Source: Pararhodobacter aggregans (GTDB lineage: Bacteria > Pseudomonadota > Alphaproteobacteria > Rhodobacterales > Rhodobacteraceae). Taken from it: a stretch of DNA of 64,000 bases. Shown here piece after piece: positions 52,120 to 63,146 of this stretch. Location of the stretch: contig NZ_QDDR01000002.1 in the NCBI RefSeq assembly GCF_003075525.1, forward strand, positions 1 to 64,000, read 5' to 3'. The translations under genes and the position numbers were made by a program. The notes beneath the pieces were generated by a model. The model was not told where the DNA came from and made no database searches. It worked only from the letters and a program-made list of their open reading frames with translations. The first letter of the stretch is position 1; each line of letters opens with the position of its first letter.

Positions 52120-53016
52120 CTAACCCGCCAGCCGCCGCAGCGCGCCCAGCAGCAGATCGGCGCTGGGCGGAAGCAGGCCCCGGCGGCGGCGGTAGATCTT
52201 GAAGCTGCGCCGCCAGTCGAGGTGCGGCACCCTGACCGGGGCCACCTGTCCCTGTGCCAGATCGCCCAGCAGCACCGGCTCGGGCATCCAGCAGGCCAGA
52301 TCCCCCGCCAGCACCGCCGCCCGGATCACCGCCGTCGAGCGCGATTGCAGCACCGGCAGGCCGGGCTCCAGCCGCTGATCGTGGAACCGCCGCATCCATT
52401 CGCGGGTGATCGGCGTGGCCTGCGGCGGCATCGCCCAGTCGAGGGCGGCGGCCTCGGCAAGGCTCAGGTCGCGCCCGGCCGCCGGATGCCCGGCCCGGAC
52501 ATAGACCCGCACCTCGTCGTGGAAACTCTCCTCGGCGGCCAGCCGGATCTCGTCATCCAGCGCCGAATCCGGCAGCACGGCCAGATCGACGGTCCCGGTC
52601 TTCAGCCCCTCGACCAGCCGGTCCTCCAGTTCTTCGGTGACGCTGAAGGCGACCTCCGGGTGGCTTTGGCGCAGCAGCGTCAGCGCCTCGACCAGCAGCC
52701 CGCCCGCGACCGAGCCGACGCCACCGATCCTGACCAGCCCGCGCCCGGCGCCGCGCATCTGGCGGATCAGTTCCTCGGCCTGCGCGGATTCGGACACCAT
52801 CAGTTCCGCATAAGGCAGCAGCGCCGCGCCATAGGGCGTGGGTTCCACCCCCCGCGTCGTGCGTTCGAAGAGAGGCGCGGCAAGCTGCGCCTCCAGCCGG
52901 TTCAGCGCCCGGGTCACGGCGGGCTGCGCCATGTTCAGCGCCTTCGCCGCCCGGCCGATGGAGCGGCTCTGCGCGCAGGCAAGCAGGATACGGGCGTCGC
53001 GGACATCGAAAGCCAT
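52120..53016 (-). CDS. LysR-family regulator of the decarboxylase/TRAP block
   Basis: A 298-residue regulator. The DNA-binding domain reads RDARILLACAQSRSIGRAAK, ALNMAQPAVTRALNRLEAQL and FERTTRGVEPTPYGAAL; the effector domain follows with VRIGGVGSVAGGLLVEALTL and a late VIRAAVLAGDLACWM. It resembles CatM/GalR-like activators of aromatic and acid catabolism. I start it at the ATG at 53016. It is divergent from the decarboxylase-dehydrogenase fusion gene, sharing 104 bases, the usual LysR activator arrangement; that gap is AT-rich for this genome (TATGACTTTTGAACAAACTT). Confidence 0.9.
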   Translation of the reverse strand: MAFDVRDARILLACAQSRSIGRAAKALNMAQPAVTRALNRLEAQLAAPLFERTTRGVEPTPYGAALLPYAELMVSESAQAEELIRQMRGAGRGLVRIGGVGSVAGGLLVEALTLLRQSHPEVAFSVTEELEDRLVEGLKTGTVDLAVLPDSALDDEIRLAAEESFHDEVRVYVRAGHPAAGRDLSLAEAAALDWAMPPQATPITREWMRRFHDQRLEPGLPVLQSRSTAVIRAAVLAGDLACWMPEPVLLGDLAQGQVAPVRVPHLDWRRSFKIYRRRRGLLPPSADLLLGALRRLAG

Positions 53017-53120
53017 AACGAAAGAGTATGACTTTTGAACAAACTTGGCAATTCTGTCGCAGGGGCGAATCGTGCCAGATTGGCCTTTCCGCGGTTCCCC
53101 GATCCGCGAGGGAGGCTTTG

Positions 53121-56100
53121 ATGAACGACCAATCGCGTCCGGCACAGCAGGGCGTCCGCAGCGCTGTCGAAACCGTGGCCGAGGCCAGCTTCGCGCTGCT
53201 CCGGCGGCACGGGATCGACAAGATCTTCGGCAACCCGGGCTCGACCGAACTGCCGATGTTCGTGAACCTGCCCGGGGATTTCACCTATGTGCTGGGCTTG
53301 CAGGAATCCGTGGCGGTCGGCATGGCCGATGCCCATGCCCAGATCACCGGCAACGCGGCCTTCGTGAACCTGCATTCCGCCGCGGGGCTGGGGCATGCGA
53401 TGGGCAACCTCTACACGGCGATGAAGAACCGCACGCCGCTGATCGTGACCACCGGCCAGCAGACCCGCGCCCTGCTGCCGGGCGAGCCGTTTCTGGGCAA
53501 CGAGGCGCCCGAGACGATGCCCGCCCCCTGCGTCAAATGGGCGACCCAGCCGGCAAGGGCCGAGGATGTGCCGCGCGCGCTGGAACAGGCCTATTGGCGG
53601 GCGATGCAGGCGCCCCGGGGGCCGGTGCTGGTCTCGGTGCCGCTGGACGACTGGTCCCGCCCCGCCGCGCCCATCGAGCCGCGCGAGGTCTCGCTGCGGC
53701 TCGGCGCCGACACCGAGGCGCTGGAGCGGGTGGCCGAGGGGCTGGAGGCGGCGCGGCAGGTGGCGCTGGTGGTCGGCCCCGGCGTCGACCGGGATGGCGC
53801 CTGGGATCCCGTCATCGCGCTGGCCGAGAAACTGGCAGCGCCGGTCTGGGTCAGCCCGATGTCGCCGCGCTGTTCCTTCCCCGAGACCCACCCGCTGTTC
53901 GCAGGCTTCCTGCCCGCCGTGCAGCCGGCGATTTCCGACCGTCTGGCGCCCGCCGATGCGGTGCTGGTCCTCGGCGCCCCGGTCTTCACCTATCATTTCC
54001 CGGGCCTGCCCGAGCATGTCCGCCCCGGCACCCGGCTCTACCAGATCACCGACGACCCGGCGCAGGCGGCGGGCGCGGCGATCGGCCTGTCGCTGGTCGC
54101 CGATTGCGGCACGGCGGCGGCCTTCCTGACCGACCGCTGCACCGCCCGCGAGTTGCCCGCCCGCCCGATGCGCGAGATCCCGGGCGTGGCCCAACCCGTG
54201 ACCATCACCAACGAATGGTTCATGCAGGTCCTCAGCGACCTGCGCGACCCCGACAGCATCGTGGTCGAGGAAGCCCCCAGCGCCCGCGACGCGCTGCACG
54301 ATTACTTTCCCATCGACCGGCCCGGGGGCTTCTTCGCCACGGCCTCGGGCGGGCTGGGCTTTGGGCTTCCGGCGGCGGTGGGCGCGGCACTGACCGGGCA
54401 GGACCGGGCTGTCGTTGCGATCATGGGCGATGGATCGAGCCTCTATTCCATTCAGGCGCTCTGGTCGGCGGCGGAGCATGACGCCGACCTCTGCATCCTG
54501 GTCCTGAACAACGGCGGCTATGCCGCGCTGAAGGGCATCGCCGAAAAGACGCAGGCGCGCGACGTGGCGGGCGTGGCGATCAACCACCTCGATTTCGTGC
54601 AGATCGCCCGGGCGCAGGGCGTGCCCGCCGAGCGCTGCGCCGACCCCGCCGCCTTGCCCGGCGCGATCCGCGAGATGCTGGCGCGCAAAGGTCCGCGCCT
54701 TCTGGAAGTGATGATCGGGCCGCAGCCCGAAACCGAGACAGCTCAACGGGAGGAAGAGCCCATGAACGTGATGACCAATACCGCCCCGGCGGCCCAGACC
54801 ACCGGCGCGGGCCGCCTGAAGGCGCCCGAGAAATTCTTCATCAACGGCGAATGGGTCGAGCCCCTGTCGCGCGCCAGCCTCGAGGTCGTCTCGCCGATGA
54901 CCGAGGAGGTGATCCTCAGCTACCCCGAGGCCGGGACCGCCGATATCGACCGCGCCGTCGCCGCCGCGCGCCATGCCTTCGACGAGGGCCCCTGGCCGCG
55001 CCTGTCGCCGACCGAGCGCGCCCGCTACCTGCGCAAGATCGCCCGCAACATCGAAGACCGGATGGACGATATCGTCGCGGCCTGGGTGGCGCAGGTCGGC
55101 GTGCCGGTGATGCTGGCCAGGAAACTGGCGCCACAGAACGCGCAGCTTTTCGACTTCTACGCCGACATGATCGAAAGCTATCCCTTCATCGACCACCGCA
55201 AGCGCGCCGATGGCGGCATCACGCGGGTGGTGAAGGAGCCGGTCGGCGTGACCGCCGCAATCTCGCCCTGGAACGCGCCGATGGTGCTGCTGACCTACAA
55301 GATCGCGGCCGGGCTGGCGGCGGGCTGCACCTTTGTCGCCAAACCCTCGCCCGAGACGCCGCTGGAAGCCTATATCATGGCCGAATGCATCGAGAAGGCG
55401 GGGCTGCCGGCCGGGGTCTTCAACCTGGTGCCCGCCGGGCGCGAGGTGGGCGATTATCTGATCCGCCGCCCGGATATCGACAAGGTGGCCTTCACTGGCT
55501 CGACCGCCGCGGGCAAGCATATCGCCGGGGTCTGCGCCGAGCGTCTGGCGCGGGTGTCGCTGGAGCTGGGTGGCAAATCGGCCGCCGTGCTGCTGCCTGA
55601 CGCCGATTTCCAGAAGGCGCTGATGCCGCTGCTGATCTACTCGATGCCGATCACCGGGCAGGTCTGCTTCTCGCTGACCCGCATCCTGGTGCCCGAGGCG
55701 CGCAAGCAGGAGTTCCTGGATCTGTTCGTCCCGGCCGTACAATCGCTGAAACTGGGCGATCCCTCCGATCCCTCCACCCAGATGGGCCCCCTGACCATGG
55801 CCCGCCAGCGCGAGCGGGTCGAGGGCTACATCAAGGCCGGGATCGAAGGGGGCGCGCGGGTGCTTTGCGGGGGCAAGCGGCCCGCGGGGATGGACAAGGG
55901 CTTCTTCATCGAGCCCACGGTCTTTACCGACGTCACCCCTGGCATGAAGATCTTCCAGGAGGAGATCTTCGGCCCGGTCGTCTCGGTCATCGGCTACCGG
56001 GACGAGGAGGACGCGGCGCGCAAGGCCAATGACTCGGTCTATGGGCTGGCGGGCGCCATCTTCTCGCAGGACCCGGAAAAGGCCTATGCCTTTGCCCGGC

Positions 56101-56249
56101 GGATGCGGGCGGGGAACATGTCGGTCAATTCGATGATCGTTGACATCACCATGCCCTTCGGCGGCTTCAAGCAATCGGGGCAGGGGCGCGAGGGTGGCAT
56201 CGAGGGGTTGGAGAACTACCTCGAAACCAAGTCGATCCACATGGGGTAA
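53121..56249 (+). CDS. Benzoylformate decarboxylase-aldehyde dehydrogenase fusion protein
   Basis: A 1042-residue fusion. Residues 1-535 closely resemble Pseudomonas benzoylformate decarboxylase, with S41 (GNPGSTELP), E62 (LQES), H85 (NLHSAAG) and H292 (APVFTYHF) matching its S26, E47, H70 and H281, plus the TPP/Mg motif MGDGSS with NNGGY. Residues 560-1042 are a full aldehyde dehydrogenase with E815 (LELGGKS) and nucleophile C849 (GQVCFS), 34 apart as usual. Together: 2-oxoacid -> aldehyde -> acid. The linker (about 536-560) contains GGGAGG and an ATG at 54762, an apparent relic or working start for a separate dehydrogenase. GGGAGG precedes the main ATG at 53121. A strong terminator follows. 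Confidence 0.93.
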   Translation: MNDQSRPAQQGVRSAVETVAEASFALLRRHGIDKIFGNPGSTELPMFVNLPGDFTYVLGLQESVAVGMADAHAQITGNAAFVNLHSAAGLGHAMGNLYTAMKNRTPLIVTTGQQTRALLPGEPFLGNEAPETMPAPCVKWATQPARAEDVPRALEQAYWRAMQAPRGPVLVSVPLDDWSRPAAPIEPREVSLRLGADTEALERVAEGLEAARQVALVVGPGVDRDGAWDPVIALAEKLAAPVWVSPMSPRCSFPETHPLFAGFLPAVQPAISDRLAPADAVLVLGAPVFTYHFPGLPEHVRPGTRLYQITDDPAQAAGAAIGLSLVADCGTAAAFLTDRCTARELPARPMREIPGVAQPVTITNEWFMQVLSDLRDPDSIVVEEAPSARDALHDYFPIDRPGGFFATASGGLGFGLPAAVGAALTGQDRAVVAIMGDGSSLYSIQALWSAAEHDADLCILVLNNGGYAALKGIAEKTQARDVAGVAINHLDFVQIARAQGVPAERCADPAALPGAIREMLARKGPRLLEVMIGPQPETETAQREEEPMNVMTNTAPAAQTTGAGRLKAPEKFFINGEWVEPLSRASLEVVSPMTEEVILSYPEAGTADIDRAVAAARHAFDEGPWPRLSPTERARYLRKIARNIEDRMDDIVAAWVAQVGVPVMLARKLAPQNAQLFDFYADMIESYPFIDHRKRADGGITRVVKEPVGVTAAISPWNAPMVLLTYKIAAGLAAGCTFVAKPSPETPLEAYIMAECIEKAGLPAGVFNLVPAGREVGDYLIRRPDIDKVAFTGSTAAGKHIAGVCAERLARVSLELGGKSAAVLLPDADFQKALMPLLIYSMPITGQVCFSLTRILVPEARKQEFLDLFVPAVQSLKLGDPSDPSTQMGPLTMARQRERVEGYIKAGIEGGARVLCGGKRPAGMDKGFFIEPTVFTDVTPGMKIFQEEIFGPVVSVIGYRDEEDAARKANDSVYGLAGAIFSQDPEKAYAFARRMRAGNMSVNSMIVDITMPFGGFKQSGQGREGGIEGLENYLETKSIHMG

Positions 56250-56274
56250 TCCGCGGGTTGGGAGCGGAGAAGGG

Positions 56275-56304
56275 AACGGCCCGGGGATCACCCGGGCCGT
56301 TTCT
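56275..56304. terminator. Terminator between the fusion gene and the convergent DUF3237 gene
   Basis: ACGGCCCGGG (56276-56285) pairs perfectly with CCCGGGCCGT (56291-56300) over a 5-base loop; TTCTCGTT follows on the plus strand. It sits between convergent genes and could end transcripts in both directions. Confidence 0.75.
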
Positions 56305-56328
56305 CGTTCCTCCGACGGGGGCCGGGGG

Positions 56329-56781
56329 TCAGACGACCTCCCAGATCCCGATCTCGACCGAACTGGCGAAACGGGCCCCGGTGCCGACAAAGACCGTCCG
56401 GTTGACCCAGGCATAGCGTGGATCGCCGGTGTGCAGGCGGGGCTGGGTGCGCATGTAGTATTCCGCCGGGTCCACGGCCTCGCCCTTGGCCACGCGGGCC
56501 AGAACCTCGGCCGGGCCGTGGCGATAGCCGAAGTTGCGGATGTCGATCAGGGCGCCGTCATGCGTCTCGATGGCGTAGCGGGTGTCCAGTTCGGCATGGC
56601 CCGGGTAGATCGTCTGCCAATCGGCGCCGAGGTTCAGCACCTTGCCCTCGATCCGCCCGGTCACCGTGCCGCCGATGATCGGGATGATCCGCCAGCTCAG
56701 CCCGTCGGCCGCGCCCTTTTCCAGCGGCGGGGCCAGAGCGCAGCGGATCTCGCAAACGGGGCGGAGCGCGGGGGTCTGCAT
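56329..56781 (-). CDS. DUF3237 domain protein
   Basis: A 150-residue protein matching DUF3237: RIIPIIGGTVTGRIEGKVLN near the start, GADWQTIYPGHAELDTRYAI, then IDIRNFGYRHGP and a final YAWVNRTVFVGTGARFASSVEIGIWEV. The family is a small beta-barrel of unknown function that often sits in catabolic clusters for aromatic and other organic acids. The ATG at 56781 overlaps the DctM stop (TGATG) and has GAGG upstream, so it is the last gene of the DctP-Q-M-DUF3237 operon. A structural or binding role is inferred, not shown. Confidence 0.88.
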   Translation of the reverse strand: MQTPALRPVCEIRCALAPPLEKGAADGLSWRIIPIIGGTVTGRIEGKVLNLGADWQTIYPGHAELDTRYAIETHDGALIDIRNFGYRHGPAEVLARVAKGEAVDPAEYYMRTQPRLHTGDPRYAWVNRTVFVGTGARFASSVEIGIWEVV

Positions 56782-58073
56782 CACATCGTCCTCGGCAGCC
56801 AGAGCACGATGGCCGGGAAGGCCACCAGAATGCCCAGCCGCAGCACATCGGCGGCGATGAAGGGCAGCACGCCGCGGAAGATGACGGGCAGTTTCACTTC
56901 CTTGGCTATCATGTTGATGACATAGACGTTTATCCCGACGGGCGGCGTAATCAACCCCAGTTCCGCGGTCATCACGATGATGATGCCGAACCAGATCGGG
57001 TCAAAGCCCAGATGCACGATCACCGGATAGACGATCGGCACCATCAGGATGATCATCGCCATGGAATCAAGGATGCAGCCGGCGATGATGAACACCAGCA
57101 GGATCAGCGCCAGCGTGCCCATCGGCCCGAAATCGAGCGCCACCAGCCAGGCGGTCAGCTTCTGCGGCGATTGGGTGATGGCCAGAAAATAGCCGAACAG
57201 CATCGCCCCGATCAGCACGGTATAGACCGAGACCGAGGTTCTGAGCGCCTCGGTCAGGCTGTCGACGATCTGGCGGAAATTGAGCCGCCCGCGGACGATG
57301 CCCACGACCATGGTCAGCGTGGCGCCGATGGCCGAGGCCTCGGTCGGCGTGGCGACACCCCAGTAGATCGAGCCGATCACCATGACGAAAAGCAGCACCA
57401 CGGCCCAGATCCCGGCCAGCGAGCGCATCGCCTCACGCAGGCTGAAGGGGGTGCCGGGCGGCAGGGACTTGCGGTGCCCGATGAGCAGCGCCGCCATGTA
57501 CATGGCGATGGCCAGAAGCCCCGGCACGATCCCGGCGATGAAGAGTTTGCCGACGTCGGTTTCGGTGATGTAGGCATAGACCACCATGACGACCGAGGGC
57601 GGGATCAGGATGCCCAGCGTGCCGCCCGCGGCGATGACGCCGGTCGCCGCATCCTCGCGATAGCCATAGCGGCGCATCTCAGGGAGCGCGATCTTGGTCA
57701 TCGTCGCGGCGGTGGCGACTGAGGATCCGCAGATCGCCGCGAACCCGCCGCAGGCGGCGATGGTCGACAGGCCCAGGCCCCCCTTGAAGGGGCCGAGCCA
57801 GGCGTTGCCCGCCTTGAACAACTCCTTGCTGATGCCTGAATTCGTGGCGAAAATCCCCATCAGGATGAAGAAGCTGACCAGCGTCAGGTTGAAATCGGTA
57901 ATCACCCGGATGGGCGAGGTGGCGAGCAGGTTCAGCGCCGGGTTGATGCCGCGGATCGCGGCGAAGCCGAAGACGCCGACCAAGCCCATGGCGATGCCGA
58001 TCGGCACCCGGAGCGCCATCATGCCGAAAAGCGCGAGGAAGCCGACGAGGGCGATAAGGTCAGGGGTCGTCAT
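56781..58073 (-). CDS. TRAP transporter large permease (DctM)
   Basis: A 430-residue inner-membrane protein with about 12 helices, the large subunit of a classical TRAP system. Diagnostic segments: FFILMGIFATNSGISKELF, GLSTIAACGGFAAICGSSVA, GTLGILIPPSVVMVVYAYIT, GATLTMVVGIVRGRL and LGLITPPVGINVYVINMIA. It lies 1 base after the small-permease stop and overlaps the DUF3237 start, so translation is coupled throughout. With the receptor at 58661 it would import a carboxylate by a sodium gradient. Confidence 0.95.
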   Translation of the reverse strand: MTTPDLIALVGFLALFGMMALRVPIGIAMGLVGVFGFAAIRGINPALNLLATSPIRVITDFNLTLVSFFILMGIFATNSGISKELFKAGNAWLGPFKGGLGLSTIAACGGFAAICGSSVATAATMTKIALPEMRRYGYREDAATGVIAAGGTLGILIPPSVVMVVYAYITETDVGKLFIAGIVPGLLAIAMYMAALLIGHRKSLPPGTPFSLREAMRSLAGIWAVVLLFVMVIGSIYWGVATPTEASAIGATLTMVVGIVRGRLNFRQIVDSLTEALRTSVSVYTVLIGAMLFGYFLAITQSPQKLTAWLVALDFGPMGTLALILLVFIIAGCILDSMAMIILMVPIVYPVIVHLGFDPIWFGIIIVMTAELGLITPPVGINVYVINMIAKEVKLPVIFRGVLPFIAADVLRLGILVAFPAIVLWLPRTM

Positions 58074-58074
58074 G

Positions 58075-58587
58075 TCAGTCCAGCTTCTGCGCGGCTTCGC
58101 GCTCGAATTCGGGGGTCGCCTTGCCCGAGGCCAGCAGGAACAGGCGCACGGTGACGGTGAAGATGCTGATCGCGGTCCCGGCCCAGATCAGCGCCATCAG
58201 GGGCCAGACCGGCAGGCGCAGATCGAAGGTCGATTCGTTCGAGCGCATGGCGCTGTCGACGCGGCCGAACATCTTCCAGGCCAGCAGCACGACAAAGAGC
58301 AGCAGCACCGCCCAGGCCAGGAACTCGACCCAGCGGCGGGCGCGTTCGGGCATCATCTCGACGAAGAGGTCGACGGTGATATGGCCGCCGCGATAGCCGA
58401 CCGAGGCAAAGCCCCACATGATGCAGGCGCCGATCAGCAGGCGCGAGACGTCGAAACTGTCGGGAACCGGGGTGGTCAGCGCATAGCGGCCGATGGCCGA
58501 GACGACGATGAGGATCGTGCACAGGCCGAGCAGCAGCCCGGCCAGCATTTCCACGATCTGGCAGAAACGTTCCAGGATCTTGACCAA
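58075..58587 (-). CDS. TRAP transporter small permease (DctQ)
   Basis: A 170-residue protein with four helices (about 13-35, 46-65, 84-106, 127-151). The DctQ signature region is SFDVSRLLIGACIMWGFASVGYRGGHITVD, with the usual Arg-Gly-Gly-His before a short amphipathic helix (VEMMPERARRWVEF). It is 1 base upstream of dctM and 73 bases downstream of the receptor gene, from which it is separated by a stem-loop. Forms the permease complex with DctM. Confidence 0.93.
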   Translation of the reverse strand: MVKILERFCQIVEMLAGLLLGLCTILIVVSAIGRYALTTPVPDSFDVSRLLIGACIMWGFASVGYRGGHITVDLFVEMMPERARRWVEFLAWAVLLLFVVLLAWKMFGRVDSAMRSNESTFDLRLPVWPLMALIWAGTAISIFTVTVRLFLLASGKATPEFEREAAQKLD

Positions 58588-58660: not shown

Positions 58661-59689
58661 TTACTGGCCATAGAGCCCGTCATAGCGGGCCAGCGCATCG
58701 CGCAGGCCTTGCAGCATCGCCTCGCCGTCGCGGCCCTGCGAGGCCATCAGCGCCAGCCATTCCGCGGTCAGCGGCTCGGCCGCGGCCTGCCACAGCGCCA
58801 CCTGTTCGGCGTTGGGCGTGTGCATCGTATGCGCGGGATCGGCAGCGATCGAGGCGCGGCCCGCGGCCTCGGCCCCGGCCCAGCCGGTCGACATGGTCTC
58901 GGCCGCTTCGGGCGAGCAATGGTTCGTCATGATGGTGCGCAGATCCTCGGGCATGCCGTCGATCATGCCGCGGTTCATGACGAAACCGTTGATCGAGGCA
59001 TAGAAGGGCATGTCGAGGTGATGCGTGACCAGCGTGTCGGCGCCGAAGATATAGAGCGATTGCCAGGGCGACTGGGTGATGTCGGCGGTGCCGTTCGACA
59101 GCACCTCGCGCATCGCCGGCGCCGGCACCTGGACCGAGGCCCCGCCCAGTAGGTTGACGAAGCGCGCCTCGGTGGCGTTGGCCGGGCGCACGGTGCGGCC
59201 GCGCACATCCTCGGGCACCAGGATCGGCTCCTTGCCGTGCATCGTGCCCGGGTCATGGGTCAGCGCCATGCAGAAATAGACATCGCCCATTTCCATGTCG
59301 TCATAGCCGCCCTGCTGATACCATTCGGTCAGCCCGCGCACCGCGCCCGTCGCGTTGGCGAAGAGGAACGGCAGTTCCGCGGCAGCGAGGATCGGGAAGC
59401 GGCCCGGCTGATAGCCCGGGTTGATGAAGGCGATGTCGGCGATCCCGTCGCGGGCCATGTCGTAATGGTCGGCCGCGGCGCCCAGCTGCTGGGCGGGATA
59501 GACGGTGAAGGTGATGCGGCCCCCCGATTCCTCGGTGATCGACTGCATCCAGGGCTCCATCCCCAGGACTTGCAGCGGGTGGGTGGCGGGCACCCAATGG
59601 GCGAGGCTGAGGTTGTATTCCTGCGCGGTGGCGGTGTGGCCAAGGCACAGGGCGACGGCCGTGGCGGCTGCCAAGGTTCTGACGGTCAT
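58661..59689 (-). CDS. TRAP transporter substrate-binding protein (DctP)
   Basis: A 342-residue periplasmic receptor. Signal peptide is about residues 1-22 (ending HTATAQ). Mature: YNLSLAHWVPATHPLQV, then DGIADIAFINPGYQPGRFP, and the typical ligand-binding VRGRTVRPANATEARFV, whose Arg would hold a carboxylate as in DctP family structures, followed by EVLSNGTADITQSPWQSL. GGAGGAGAAG precedes the ATG at 59689. It is the first gene of the DctPQM-DUF3237 operon and is divergent from the second TPP enzyme; the 428-base gap carries candidate operators. Ligand: probably an aromatic or hydroxy acid, by inference from neighbours. Confidence 0.93.
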   Translation of the reverse strand: MTVRTLAAATAVALCLGHTATAQEYNLSLAHWVPATHPLQVLGMEPWMQSITEESGGRITFTVYPAQQLGAAADHYDMARDGIADIAFINPGYQPGRFPILAAAELPFLFANATGAVRGLTEWYQQGGYDDMEMGDVYFCMALTHDPGTMHGKEPILVPEDVRGRTVRPANATEARFVNLLGGASVQVPAPAMREVLSNGTADITQSPWQSLYIFGADTLVTHHLDMPFYASINGFVMNRGMIDGMPEDLRTIMTNHCSPEAAETMSTGWAGAEAAGRASIAADPAHTMHTPNAEQVALWQAAAEPLTAEWLALMASQGRDGEAMLQGLRDALARYDGLYGQ

Positions 59690-59754
59690 TCTTCTCCTCC
59701 CTGTGAAGTCCTGACTGCCGCCGCGGAGTCCGCAGGGGCAGGGCTTCTGCAAAT

Positions 59755-59764
59755 ATGTGTACAT
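59755..59764. promoter_or_regulatory. GntR-like half-palindromic site near the TRAP operon
   Basis: ATGTGTACAT, matching the TNGTNNACNA-like core used by FadR/FCD-type GntR regulators, 66 bases upstream of dctP. Near-identical to the site at the other end of the region. Confidence 0.4.
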
Positions 59765-60091
59765 GCCGGGGGGATTCGGACAAGCAATTTCTGGATTATC
59801 AAATGACATCGGATGGCGGAGCCGCCCGGACTTCCGCTGCGGTGCGGCATTTCCCGCCCGGGACCGGCGGCGTACCGCTCCGCGCCCCATCCGGCCGAAT
59901 CGCCTGGCATCACCCGCTTTTTTGACGGGATTTCAAGGCCGATTCCGCCCCGGTTTTTCCCGGCAGTCGGGGCGCTTTTCATGTCAGGGCGCCGAACATG
60001 CCTCGGTTGCGCCCGATTTCCGCCGCGAAGCCCCCGCAGGGTCGCACTCGCCCGTTGCACTGCCCGGAAGGGTCGGGCAGTCTCGCAAGCA

Positions 60092-60101
60092 ATGTATACA
60101 T
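60092..60101. promoter_or_regulatory. GntR-like palindrome at the TPP-enzyme start
   Basis: ATGTATACAT, a perfect 10-bp palindrome 17 bases before the ATG at 60118 and directly before the ribosome binding site GGGAGGGG. The position favours a repressor that blocks transcription or early elongation. Confidence 0.5.
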
Positions 60102-60117
60102 CCAGGGAGGGGTGGCC

Positions 60118-61773
60118 ATGAAAGTCGGGGATGCAATCGCCGAGATCCTGCGGCGCGAAGGCGTCGAGATGGTGATCGGTTACCCGGTCAACCATGTGCT
60201 GGAATATGCCGCCATCGCCAATATCCGGCCGATCATCGTCCGTCAGGAGCGCACCGGCGCCCATATGGCCGATGCGATCAGCCGCATGACCAGCGGCGAG
60301 AAGATCGGCGTCTTCGTCATGCAATCGGGACCCGGGGCCGAGAATACCTATGGCGCCATCGCCCAGGCCTATGCGGAATCGGTGCCGCTCTTGGTCATGC
60401 CGGGTGGCTATCACCGGCGGCTTGCCCATGTCTCGCCGAATTACAATTCCACCATTTCCATGCGCGACATCACCAAATCGGCCGAGCCGATCAACGATGC
60501 GCGCGAGATCCCGGCCATCATGCGCCGCGCCTTCTCGCGGCTGAAGAACGGCCGTGGCGGTCCGGTGCTGGTCGAGATCCCGAACGACATCTGGGGCGAC
60601 GAGGTGCCGGAACCCCTGACTTACAAACCCGTCCTGCGCACCCGGTTCGGGCCCGATCCGGCGGCGGTGGTCGAGGCGGTCTCGCTGCTCGCGAGCGCCA
60701 AACGCCCGGTGATCTACGCCGGGCAGGGTGTGCATTACGCCAAGGCCTGGCCGCAGCTGAAGGCGCTGGCCGAGCGGCTCTCGATCCCGGTCTGCACCTC
60801 GCTGGAAGGGAAAAGCGCCTTCCCCGAGGATCACAGGCTGGCGCTGGGCTCGGGCGGGGCGGCGCTGCCGCTGACGGTGCGGCATTTCCTCGACAACGCG
60901 GACGTCATCTTCGGCATCGGCTGCTCCTTCACCGAGACCGCCTTCGGAGTGGAGATGCCGCTGGGCAAACGGGTGATCCACGCCACGCTGGACCCCGATC
61001 ACGTCAACAAGGACCTGGAGGCCGAGGTGGCGCTGATCGGCGACGCCGCCCTCACGCTGGACGCGGTTCTGGCCGAGATCGAGGGCCGGCGCCTGCCCAG
61101 GCCCGATCCGCAGGCGGTCGCCGACGAGATCCAGCGCATCCGCGCGCAATGGATGAAGAAATGGATGGTCAAGCTGCGCTCGGACGAGGCGCCGTTCCGG
61201 CCCTACCGGGTGCTGTGGGACCTTCAGCAGACGGTCGATGTGGCGAACACGATCATCACCCATGACGCGGGCTCGCCGCGCGACCAGCTGTCGCCTTTCT
61301 GGGTGTCCACCACGCCGCTCAGCTACATCGGCTGGGGCAAGTCCACGCAGCTGGGCTACGGGCTGGGGCTGGCGATGGGCGCGAAACTCGCCTGCCCGGA
61401 CAAGCTCTGCATCAACGTCTGGGGCGATGCGGCGATCGGCTTCACCGGCATGGATTTCGAGACGGCGGTGAGGGAGCGCATCCCGATCCTGTCGATCCTT
61501 CTGAACAACCATTCCATGGCCATGGAATTGCCGATCATGCCCGTCTCGACCGAGAAATACCGCTCGACCGACATCGGCGGCGATTACGCGGCCTTTGCCC
61601 GGGCGATGGGCGGCTATGGCGAGCGGATCACCGACGTGTCCGAGATCATCCCCGCCATCAGGCGCGGCATCGCCGCGACCGAAGCCGGGCAGCCCGCGCT
61701 GCTGGAATTCATCACCTGTCAGGAGATCGAATCGTCCAAATATCCCCGCGGCTCGGGGAACCTCTACCCGTGA
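60118..61773 (+). CDS. Thiamine pyrophosphate-requiring enzyme (acetolactate synthase/2-oxoacid decarboxylase family)
   Basis: A 551-residue three-domain TPP enzyme. PYR domain: MKVGDAIAEILRREGVEMVI with the catalytic Glu in RQERTGAHMADA; middle domain VIYAGQGVHYAKAWPQLKAL; PP domain with the diphosphate/Mg site VWGDAAIGFTGMDFETAV and LLNNHSM. It lacks obvious FAD-binding extras, so it may decarboxylate or carboligate 2-oxoacids. It differs clearly from the benzoylformate-type half of the fusion (no matching HSAAG His), so the two should act on different substrates or steps. GGGAGGGG precedes the ATG. Its stop overlaps the GTG start of the FAD oxidase gene (GTGA). Confidence 0.9.
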   Translation: MKVGDAIAEILRREGVEMVIGYPVNHVLEYAAIANIRPIIVRQERTGAHMADAISRMTSGEKIGVFVMQSGPGAENTYGAIAQAYAESVPLLVMPGGYHRRLAHVSPNYNSTISMRDITKSAEPINDAREIPAIMRRAFSRLKNGRGGPVLVEIPNDIWGDEVPEPLTYKPVLRTRFGPDPAAVVEAVSLLASAKRPVIYAGQGVHYAKAWPQLKALAERLSIPVCTSLEGKSAFPEDHRLALGSGGAALPLTVRHFLDNADVIFGIGCSFTETAFGVEMPLGKRVIHATLDPDHVNKDLEAEVALIGDAALTLDAVLAEIEGRRLPRPDPQAVADEIQRIRAQWMKKWMVKLRSDEAPFRPYRVLWDLQQTVDVANTIITHDAGSPRDQLSPFWVSTTPLSYIGWGKSTQLGYGLGLAMGAKLACPDKLCINVWGDAAIGFTGMDFETAVRERIPILSILLNNHSMAMELPIMPVSTEKYRSTDIGGDYAAFARAMGGYGERITDVSEIIPAIRRGIAATEAGQPALLEFITCQEIESSKYPRGSGNLYP

Positions 61774-63146
61774 GCGTCGAGACTGTGATCACCGGCCTGC
61801 GGTCCCTGCTGGGGGACCGCCTCGCCACCTCGAACGCGGTGCGCGACCATCACAGCCACGACAGTTCCTGGCATCCGGCCGCGCTGCCGGATGCCGTGGC
61901 CTTCCCCCGGACCGAGGCCGAGGTGCAGGCAATCGTCCGCCTCTGCGCCGAGCATGACGTGGCGGTCATCCCCTTCGGCGCGGGTTCCTCGATGGAGGGG
62001 CACACGATCCCGACCCGCGGCGGCATCACCATCGACATGCGCGACATGAACAAGGTGCTGGAAATCCGGCCCGAGGATGGGCTGGCCGTGGTGCAGGCGG
62101 GCGTCACCCGCAAGCAGCTGAACACCGAACTCAGGGCCACGGGCCTCATGTTCTCGGTCGATCCCGGGGCCGATGCCTCGCTCGGTGGCATGGCCTCGAC
62201 CCGGGGCTCGGGCACCATGGCCTACCGCTATGGCACGATGCGCGACAATGTGCTGGCGCTGAGGGTGGTGACGGCGGACGGGCAAGTGGTCAGGACCGGC
62301 AGCCGGGCGCGGAAATCCTCGACCGGCTATGACCTCACGCATCTTTTCGTCGGCGCCGAGGGGACGCTGGGCGTCATCACCGAGCTGACCGTGCGGCTGC
62401 ATCCGATCCCCGAGGCGGTGTCGTCGGCCATCTGCGCCTTCCCCGATGCGCAAAGCGCCGTCGCCTGCGTGATCGAGGCCGTGCAATACGGCCTGCCGAT
62501 GGCGCGGGTCGAGTTCCTGGACGAGGTGGCGGTCTCGAACGTCAATTCCTATTCCGGGCTGACGCTCAGGGTCGCGCCGACGCTCCTCTTCGAGTTCCAC
62601 GGGACCGAGGCCTGGGCGGCCGAACAGGCGCAGATCGTCGAAAGCCTGGCCGAGGGCCATGGCGGGGCCGATTTCGTCTGGACCGCGGATGCCGAGGAAC
62701 GCGGGCGCCTCTGGCAGGCGCGCCACGACCTCTATTGGGCGACCAAGGCCCGGCGGCCGGGGTGCGAGCTTTATACCGGCGACATCTGCGTGCCGATCTC
62801 GGAACTGGCGGGTCAGATCGAGGCGGCGCGGGCGGATATCGAGGCGAGTTTCCTGGAAGGGCAGATCATCGGCCATGTCGGCGACGGCAATTACCACGCC
62901 GGTTATCTGGTGATGCGCGACAGTCCCGAGGAGATGGCCGAAGCGGCGCGGCTGGCCGAAAGGCTGGTCGAACGGGCCTTGCAGGTCGGGGGGACGGCCA
63001 GCGGCGAGCATGGGATAGGCCTTGCCAAGCTGAAATACCTGCGGGCCGAGCATGGCGATGCGGCGGTCGAGCTGATGAAGACGCTGAAGCGGGCGATGGA
63101 TCCCAAGGGCATCCTGAACCCCGGCAAGCTCGGCCAGGCAGGCTAG
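61770..63146 (+). CDS. FAD-linked D-2-hydroxyacid dehydrogenase (LDHD/GlcD-like)
   Basis: A 458-residue flavoenzyme of the VAO superfamily. FAD-binding segments: VIPFGAGSSMEGHTIPTRGG, FSVDPGADASLGGMASTRG, RYGTMRDNVLALRVV and FVGAEGTLGVITELT. C-terminal metal/substrate motif GHVGDGNYHAG and EHGIGLAKLKYL. Order and wording match human LDHD-type D-lactate dehydrogenase closely, so it should oxidise a D-2-hydroxyacid to a 2-oxoacid and pass electrons to a carrier such as cytochrome c or quinone. Being coupled to a TPP enzyme, its 2-oxoacid product is the likely substrate of that enzyme. It starts with GTG overlapping the previous stop. Confidence 0.93.
   Translation: MSVETVITGLRSLLGDRLATSNAVRDHHSHDSSWHPAALPDAVAFPRTEAEVQAIVRLCAEHDVAVIPFGAGSSMEGHTIPTRGGITIDMRDMNKVLEIRPEDGLAVVQAGVTRKQLNTELRATGLMFSVDPGADASLGGMASTRGSGTMAYRYGTMRDNVLALRVVTADGQVVRTGSRARKSSTGYDLTHLFVGAEGTLGVITELTVRLHPIPEAVSSAICAFPDAQSAVACVIEAVQYGLPMARVEFLDEVAVSNVNSYSGLTLRVAPTLLFEFHGTEAWAAEQAQIVESLAEGHGGADFVWTADAEERGRLWQARHDLYWATKARRPGCELYTGDICVPISELAGQIEAARADIEASFLEGQIIGHVGDGNYHAGYLVMRDSPEEMAEAARLAERLVERALQVGGTASGEHGIGLAKLKYLRAEHGDAAVELMKTLKRAMDPKGILNPGKLGQAG

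Follow-up and report, generated by a model that had tools for sequence, protein, structure and literature searches.

A decarboxylase–aldehyde dehydrogenase fusion gene with a start signal at its joint in Pararhodobacter aggregans and related Alphaproteobacteria

Introduction

Does one gene of Pararhodobacter aggregans encode two consecutive enzymes in a single chain, how old is their union, and is the second enzyme also made on its own from a start signal at the joint? These questions are raised by a reading frame at positions 53121–56249 of a 64,000-nucleotide window (the whole stretch of DNA analysed here, i.e. positions 1 to 64,000 of contig NZ_QDDR01000002.1, assembly GCF_003075525.1). A first-pass annotation had read this frame as a benzoylformate-type decarboxylase fused to an aldehyde dehydrogenase (ALDH), with a start signal kept at the joint, and had taken the fusion to be a recent one caused by loss of a stop codon. 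From the comparison of relatives given below we consider it probable that the gene encodes an old and conserved bifunctional enzyme of a catabolic cluster, that its inner start also yields free dehydrogenase, and that it was later split at the joint in some lineages.

Results and discussion

Two complete enzymes in one frame

The frame runs uninterrupted from 53121 to the TAA at 56247–56249, without a stop codon at the joint, and in its 1042 residues Pfam recognizes domains of both enzymes, as the annotation had proposed. The start at 53121 is supported by a strong Shine–Dalgarno sequence (Table 1) and by an N-terminal Met-Asn common to 13 of the 14 decarboxylase rows aligned from the clade described below (the exception, L063, was entered from a later ATG). 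The TPP_enzyme_N, TPP_enzyme_M and TPP_enzyme_C domains all lie inside residues 18–530, and the first half exceeds the curated NCBIfam cut-off for benzoylformate decarboxylase (BFD). The second half matches the ALDH profile PF00171 from end to end (1–461 of 461) and holds N718 (PWNAP), E815 (ELGGK) and C849 (GQVC), presumably the catalytic Asn, Glu and Cys. Its best named match among the 25 families listed of 42 matching in NCBIfam was HpaE (429 bits, cut-off 638), and it stayed below the cut-off of all 25 (HpaE, BADH, StyD and others). In the alignment with Pseudomonas putida BFD, Ser26, Glu28, Glu47 (which we take to be a catalytic residue), His70 and His281 correspond to S41, E43, E62, H85 and H292 of the fused protein, and all five are unchanged in 27 of 27 BFD rows compared. 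The other four have been described as catalytic in P. putida (PMC6028569). The frame encodes a BFD-family thiamine diphosphate (ThDP) decarboxylase and an ALDH, both complete, and the earlier statement that both active sites are intact is borne out. Between the window and the copy in another genome of the genus (L048, identical in coding sequence to that of G304), dN/dS is about 0.11 in the decarboxylase half, 0.05 in the dehydrogenase half and 0.65 in the linker (which has few codons); both halves are under purifying selection.

An antisense open frame of 1159 codons (52935–56414, minus strand) lies opposite the fused gene and is most probably a by-product of codon use in GC-rich DNA.

Distribution of the fusion

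The same frame is found at 96% identity in G304 and also in Pararhodobacter zhoushanensis ZQ420 (L049), so it cannot be put down to faulty assembly of a single genome. Among the matches listed, the gene occurs in three of the 18 genomes of the genus, i.e. the source genome, G304 (fused) and G310, whose copy is 85% identical over the second piece and fused at the joint, with a frameshifted decarboxylase half.

In this G310 copy (L015, 527–2157 of G310:C1) the frameshift breaks the decarboxylase half, and the joint and the dehydrogenase half stay open. It may be a sequencing error, as intact copies exist (L049), and the dehydrogenase could here come from the inner start.

A GTDB genome scan with a three-row alignment gave at least 80 loci. 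The 19 nearest (L048–L066) share a decarboxylase of at least 58% identity with an ALDH of at least 70% directly behind it (except L054, where the contig ends): 16 are fused, L054 reads through the joint before its contig ends, and two are split. One of the split pairs, in Mesobaculum littorinae (L050; 67% and 78% identity in its halves), has a TAG ending 15 nt past the decarboxylase match, followed in the same frame by the start signal and ATG; in the other, from a Chelativorans metagenome-assembled genome (L055), the genes are parted by TGA and one base before the ATG. Both retain the start signal of the joint. The other 61 loci (L067–L127) have decarboxylases of at most 53% identity; an ALDH (31–58% identity) lies behind the decarboxylase in 35 of the 59 with room for one, and in none of these 35 does the frame run into it. 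At L106 (6001–8302) a standalone decarboxylase frame runs about 500 nt on and only the last part of an ALDH matches behind it, perhaps as a decayed neighbour.

The gene is rare at strict cut-offs: searches that scored only the best three or four candidates per genome gave one of 295 genomes in the family (1e-100), one of 385 in the class (1e-170) and four of 297 in the family of G565 (1e-170). One of these four, G944, has a frame of 569 codons, apparently the same contig-end copy as L054. In the genus of G565 (g336), which is of Neorhizobium type judging from several genes identical to Neorhizobium records, 14 of 57 genomes carry the gene, all with frames of 1035–1111 codons, i.e. fused; two further genera have it in two of six genomes (one fused, one being the short frame of G944) and in two of eight (both fused). 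By identical coding sequence L061 equals the copy in G565 and L066 equals L133, and in a set of 14 loci from these genera eight repeat L056–L060 and L062–L064, leaving six new sequences. The fusion is present in Pararhodobacter, Pseudoruegeria, Oricola, Aminobacter and Neorhizobium, of the orders Rhodobacterales and Hyphomicrobiales, and the lowest decarboxylase-half identity among fused relatives is 58%. One scan of viral contigs gave 68 pattern matches and no confirmed relative; in the plasmid collection, 57 records matched over 80% of the query at one place, none of them at 60% identity or more, and the two examined from 40 listed (H2 and H26) carry separate genes.

An assembly or base-calling error that conceals a stop codon in the window has next to no probability in our judgement: nothing was found in its favour, and the joint is also open in G304, L049, L015, L051–L053, L056–L066, L132, L133 and L140–L153.

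An old fusion and probable later splits

In a tree of the decarboxylase half (without the frameshifted L015), 22 rows of the clade, 21 of them different, group at 100/100 against ten standalone rows, with the two split rows inside. L068, L069 and L123, which have one stop in the matched range, were left out of one alignment, as were L045, L021, L012 and L003 by choice. L050 groups at 100/99 with fused rows, namely L051 and those of Pararhodobacter type, and L055 stands beside fused L052 at 96/89. Constraining the fused rows to one clade was rejected (p-AU 0.005 for the BFD half and 6e-20 for both halves), and with the outgroups counted as split the tree needs a minimum of three changes. Because the split relatives nest inside the fused clade, the shortest history would be one old fusion and two later splits, and the fusion itself is old, conserved and common to two orders of Alphaproteobacteria. 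Four standalone ALDH paralogues of the same genus (71–73% identity) form a group of their own (100/99), and the standalone paralogue of the source genome begins without the MNV motif.

Little is left by these data of the recent fusion by stop-codon loss that had been proposed at first, in which the start signal would be a relic and which we regard as very improbable. In its favour is the TAG of L050, followed in frame by the signal and ATG; L050, however, lies within a well-supported group of fused rows, and the fusion recurs in further genera, and in a second order, at 58–63% identity. The annotation had named relatives with separate genes at this exact joint as evidence against its reading. 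Such relatives do exist (L050 and L055), but by their nested positions they look like later splits.

A different history, in which a translationally coupled two-gene operon was fused several times independently and the separate genes of L050 and L055 are ancestral, seems improbable to us, although neighbouring separate genes are common in the wider family (the 35 of 59 standalone loci above) and the start signal of the fused rows is also found in L050 and L055. Poor resolution of the deepest branches of the clade, together with the weaker place of L055 in the joint tree (81/53), leaves some probability for several fusions. Independent fusions would, however, require many parallel events instead of three changes, and the ALDHs next to standalone BFDs are distant ones. 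Of the two splits, that of L055 may be an error, as its genome is listed at 3-fold coverage.

The start signal at the joint

The start signal noticed at the joint by the first-pass annotation (GGGAGG before the ATG at 54762) is conserved in relatives, and in the window it is the strongest Shine–Dalgarno sequence before any of the 31 in-frame ATGs of the gene. Although insertions and deletions of as many as nine residues occur in the linker, all 12 aligned fused rows have Met-Asn, and each of the two Glu columns before the joint Met holds Glu in 11 of 12. The inner ATG is found in all 12 rows, with a Shine–Dalgarno duplex energy of −9 or lower in ten. Across the clade 19 of 21 loci reach this level (17 of the 19 that are fused or read through, and both split ones), and the distance from core to ATG is 8–9 nt in 18 of 21 despite varying linker length. 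The joint ATG has the strongest Shine–Dalgarno sequence of all in-frame ATGs in 18 of 19 open reading frames (ORFs) scored (L066 and L133 being identical; L132 was scored among the 21 loci, outside these 19), and likewise in all 14 loci of the further set with its six new sequences.

Controls set the joint apart from the rest of the gene and, within the limits given below, speak for more than chance. Eight further Met columns are conserved in 11 or more of the 12 rows (the first 30 columns being disregarded); in none of them did a row reach −9, nor did any of the 310 other in-frame ATGs of these rows, and among 996 columns the joint had the strongest median. Where retained, the inner signal has roughly the strength of the one at the gene's own start (−9.1 to −11.9 vs. 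−9.3 to −11.6 in the 14 loci for which the true start was taken, L063 not being used; −10.3 vs. −11.2 in the window). A conserved in-frame ribosome-binding site followed by a start codon, as expected of a dual start, is thus found in the clade, weak in L065, L066/L133 and L153. The calculated masses are 111.5 kDa for the full-length chain and 53.6 kDa from M548, and the smaller product is likely to be made, the conservation of its start supporting two products in most lineages, if not in all. A sigma-70 consensus scan of 52900–56500 for an inner promoter, which addresses sigma-70 promoters alone, gave none on the plus strand and one on the opposite strand.

Several points weigh against a second product. 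The 12 aligned rows are not independent (three are of Pararhodobacter type and four of Neorhizobium type). Weak signals occur in L065 (−4.3, rank 5 of 21) and among loci of Aminobacter type (−5.9 in L066/L133 and −6.0 in L153), so the inner start is not essential everywhere; by our grouping of the fused loci the signal is strong in seven of nine lineages, and lost or weakened in these two. The five codons before the inner ATG show no synonymous change among 14 distinct Neorhizobium-type sequences, a modest result in that 4–8% of windows along the gene are equally conserved. Synonymous recodings would often give an equally strong match, their share being 0.60 in the window, 0.53 in L048, 0.11 in L049, 0.38 in L051, 0.19 in L052, 0.28 in L054, 0.29 in L065 and 0.79 in L066, with only L053 (0.02) and most Neorhizobium-type rows (0.002–0.12 in nine rows) departing from this pattern. 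In the lineage to which the window belongs, the linker residues could by themselves be enough to account for the signal. As they carry much of it, the case rests on the kept Glu-Glu...Met-Asn and on the spacing.

These points can also be read as the mark of a single product, the Shine–Dalgarno-like site either arising as a side effect of GC-rich coding DNA with a linker rich in Glu, or serving as a pause site at which the first half folds before synthesis of the second. We hold this to be doubtful, if far from negligible. It agrees with the recoding shares of 11–79% in eight of the ten distinct non-Neorhizobium rows (the window, L048, L051, L052, L054, L065, L066 and, less so, L049), with a Glu pair elsewhere in the protein that gives a like match without an ATG (A2 columns 954–956, EEIFGP), and with the two lineages that lost or weakened the signal and yet remain fused. 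It leaves unaccounted for, however, why Met-Asn and the core-to-ATG distance are kept in so variable a linker; an ATG would be superfluous for a pause site, no other in-frame ATG has such a match, and most Neorhizobium-type sequences lie above the synonymous expectation.

How the fused enzyme might work

Phe464 of P. putida BFD touches the substrate (PMC6028569). Its equivalent in the fused protein is Ile473 (codon 54537–54539), and among 12 fused rows 11 have Ile at this position and L053 has Met. The split L050 and L055 hold Ile and Phe there, respectively, and all 13 standalone rows compared (chosen from many fetched) hold Phe. The change from Phe to Ile across nearly the whole clade predicts an altered substrate range and makes benzoylformate a doubtful substrate. 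Of the 'benzoylformate type' first proposed, the family stands, on the profile and the catalytic residues, but the substrate contact does not; the first half would work like a BFD, with benzoylformate itself not to be taken for granted.

The fusion mostly sits in one conserved gene cluster (Table 1), whose groups were formed by blastp at 1e-15 from ORFs of at least 110 codons. Some of these are cut by locus ends, which makes absences tentative, and Pfam names were assigned to examples only. The one locus without a regulator homologue is L065, whose contig begins nearby. Near the fusion in L051 and L052, too, lie a ThDP enzyme and an ORF of the oxidase group; several members of the oxidase group are cut by the locus end, and those of L051 and L058 were checked by Pfam. 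The 5.6-kb stretch past the TRAP genes of G565 has no GlcD-type oxidase among its listed ORFs. In the mdl mandelate operon a mandelate racemase and an FMN-type S-mandelate dehydrogenase stand beside mdlC and mdlD. Neither is among the eight neighbours examined here (LysR, DUF3237, the three TRAP parts, the ThDP enzyme, the FAD-linked oxidase and FtsJ), the rest of the genome not having been searched for them.

Table 1. Coordinates of the fused gene, its parts and its neighbours in the window.
Feature	Position	Strand	Evidence and remarks
Fusion gene for a BFD-family ThDP 2-oxoacid decarboxylase joined to an aldehyde dehydrogenase, 1042 aa, 111.5 kDa	53121..56249	+	ORF, Pfam, NCBIfam
Shine–Dalgarno sequence GGGAGG of the gene's own start (ATG 53121)	53110..53115	+	Duplex energy −11.2
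Decarboxylase part, residues 18–532	53172..54716	+	NCBIfam PRK07092, 671 bits vs. cut-off 493
Linker, residues 533–570	54717..54830	+	Length and sequence poorly conserved except EE...MN core
Inner Shine–Dalgarno sequence GGGAGG	54748..54753	+	Duplex energy −10.3; core GGAGG, then 8 nt and the ATG
Dehydrogenase-only frame beginning at ATG 54762, 495 aa, 53.6 kDa	54762..56249	+	Predicted second product
Aldehyde dehydrogenase domain PF00171, residues 578–1039	54852..56237	+	Pfam
Divergent LysR regulator	52120..53016	−	Best NCBIfam match PcaQ (below cut-off); homologue here in 18/19 loci
DUF3237 protein	56329..56784	−	Homologue in 13/19 loci
TRAP transporter DctM	56781..58073	−	Homologue in 15/19 loci
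TRAP transporter DctQ	58075..58587	−	Homologue in 15/19 loci
TRAP transporter DctP	58661..59890	−	15/19 loci; upper end is that of the longest ORF, true start probably nearer
Second ThDP enzyme	59998..61773	+	NCBIfam PRK06154, 855 bits vs. cut-off 607
FAD-linked oxidase, GlcD type, candidate 2-hydroxyacid oxidase	61770..63146	+	Below GlcD cut-off; blast group in 10/19 loci

The presence of a GlcD-type oxidase, a decarboxylase and an ALDH in the cluster suggests a path from 2-hydroxyacid to 2-oxoacid, aldehyde and acid. The TRAP transporter would import a 2-hydroxyacid or 2-oxoacid, the oxidase would convert the former to the latter, the first half of the fused protein would decarboxylate the 2-oxoacid to an aldehyde, and the tethered second half would oxidize this to the acid, so that little free aldehyde should accumulate. 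Ribosomes initiating at the ATG at 54762 would in addition supply free 53.6-kDa dehydrogenase. Aldehyde dehydrogenases are oligomeric, and the free form could enter the dehydrogenase oligomer and raise the ratio of dehydrogenase to decarboxylase. As His70 and His281 of P. putida BFD are contributed by different monomers (PMC6028569), the fused chain should also oligomerize via its first half. Since the start signal stayed in place, a later split of the gene at the joint could leave the dehydrogenase intact, as L050 and, perhaps, L055 illustrate. We are evenly divided on a further proposal, i.e. that selection keeps the ribosome-binding site of the joint to make the 111-kDa and the free 53.6-kDa forms in a set ratio, the free subunits completing or capping the oligomers of a chain both halves of which must oligomerize, and that the joint acts as a reversible hinge between fused gene and operon.

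Comparison with known systems

The closest functional parallels are MdlC–MdlD of P. putida and BzfA–BzfC of Pseudomonas sp. LLC-1, which according to PMC7760541 carry out the same two consecutive reactions with a BFD-family decarboxylase whose catalytic residues are those kept here; the bzf cluster likewise has a LysR regulator. In that description, however, the enzymes are encoded by separate genes and accompanied by an MFS transporter and a porin, whereas here they form one chain beside a TRAP transporter, a DUF3237 gene and a GlcD-type oxidase. The fused protein also differs from those enzymes in the Ile at the Phe464 position and in an ALDH half that reaches no cut-off among the 25 NCBIfam families listed.

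The ALDH–alcohol dehydrogenase fusions AdhE and BdhE resemble the present case in that an ALDH is joined to an enzyme sharing its aldehyde, and channelling has been reported for AdhE (PMC12454647). Their partner is an alcohol dehydrogenase, placed after the ALDH, and the accessible part of the same source describes no inner start; here a decarboxylase precedes the ALDH and an inner start is predicted. Two proteins from one frame through an inner start, as predicted here, have been described for the archaeal type I-B Cas11b (PMC11899642) and for lysA of mycobacteriophage Ms6 (PMC3111421). In contrast to these, as far as the accessible text goes, the putative inner product of the present gene would be the whole second enzyme of a fusion. 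Consecutive-enzyme fusions and inner starts are thus each already known, and a description of this particular pair was not found in the open-access literature (PMC, most subscription journals lying outside it).

The DUF3237 gene of the cluster belongs to the same Pfam family as PinX and, by similarity, PhcF and PhcG, decarboxylases of lignin-derived compounds from lignan and phenylcoumaran catabolism (PMC12607616). It hints at plant-aromatic substrates by analogy, the likeness being at family level and DUF3237 being here a neighbour gene only.

The tethered decarboxylase and dehydrogenase would offer a natural test of aldehyde channelling and a potential part for the biocatalytic conversion of 2-oxoacids to acids. 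With fused and split forms bearing the same start signal in one clade, the question of how operons and fusion genes turn into one another becomes directly testable.

Other pairs in the source genome

A second fusion considered in the source genome at G000:C7 (open frame 1252) was rejected, as the ThDP enzyme is not joined to an ALDH in the ORFs of that locus (L135). At three more places a ThDP enzyme has an ALDH for a neighbour, with both gene orders represented: G000:C4:263681-266728 (two separate genes), G000:C5:235753-238865 and G000:C12:133090-136974. This pairing is a recurrent theme.

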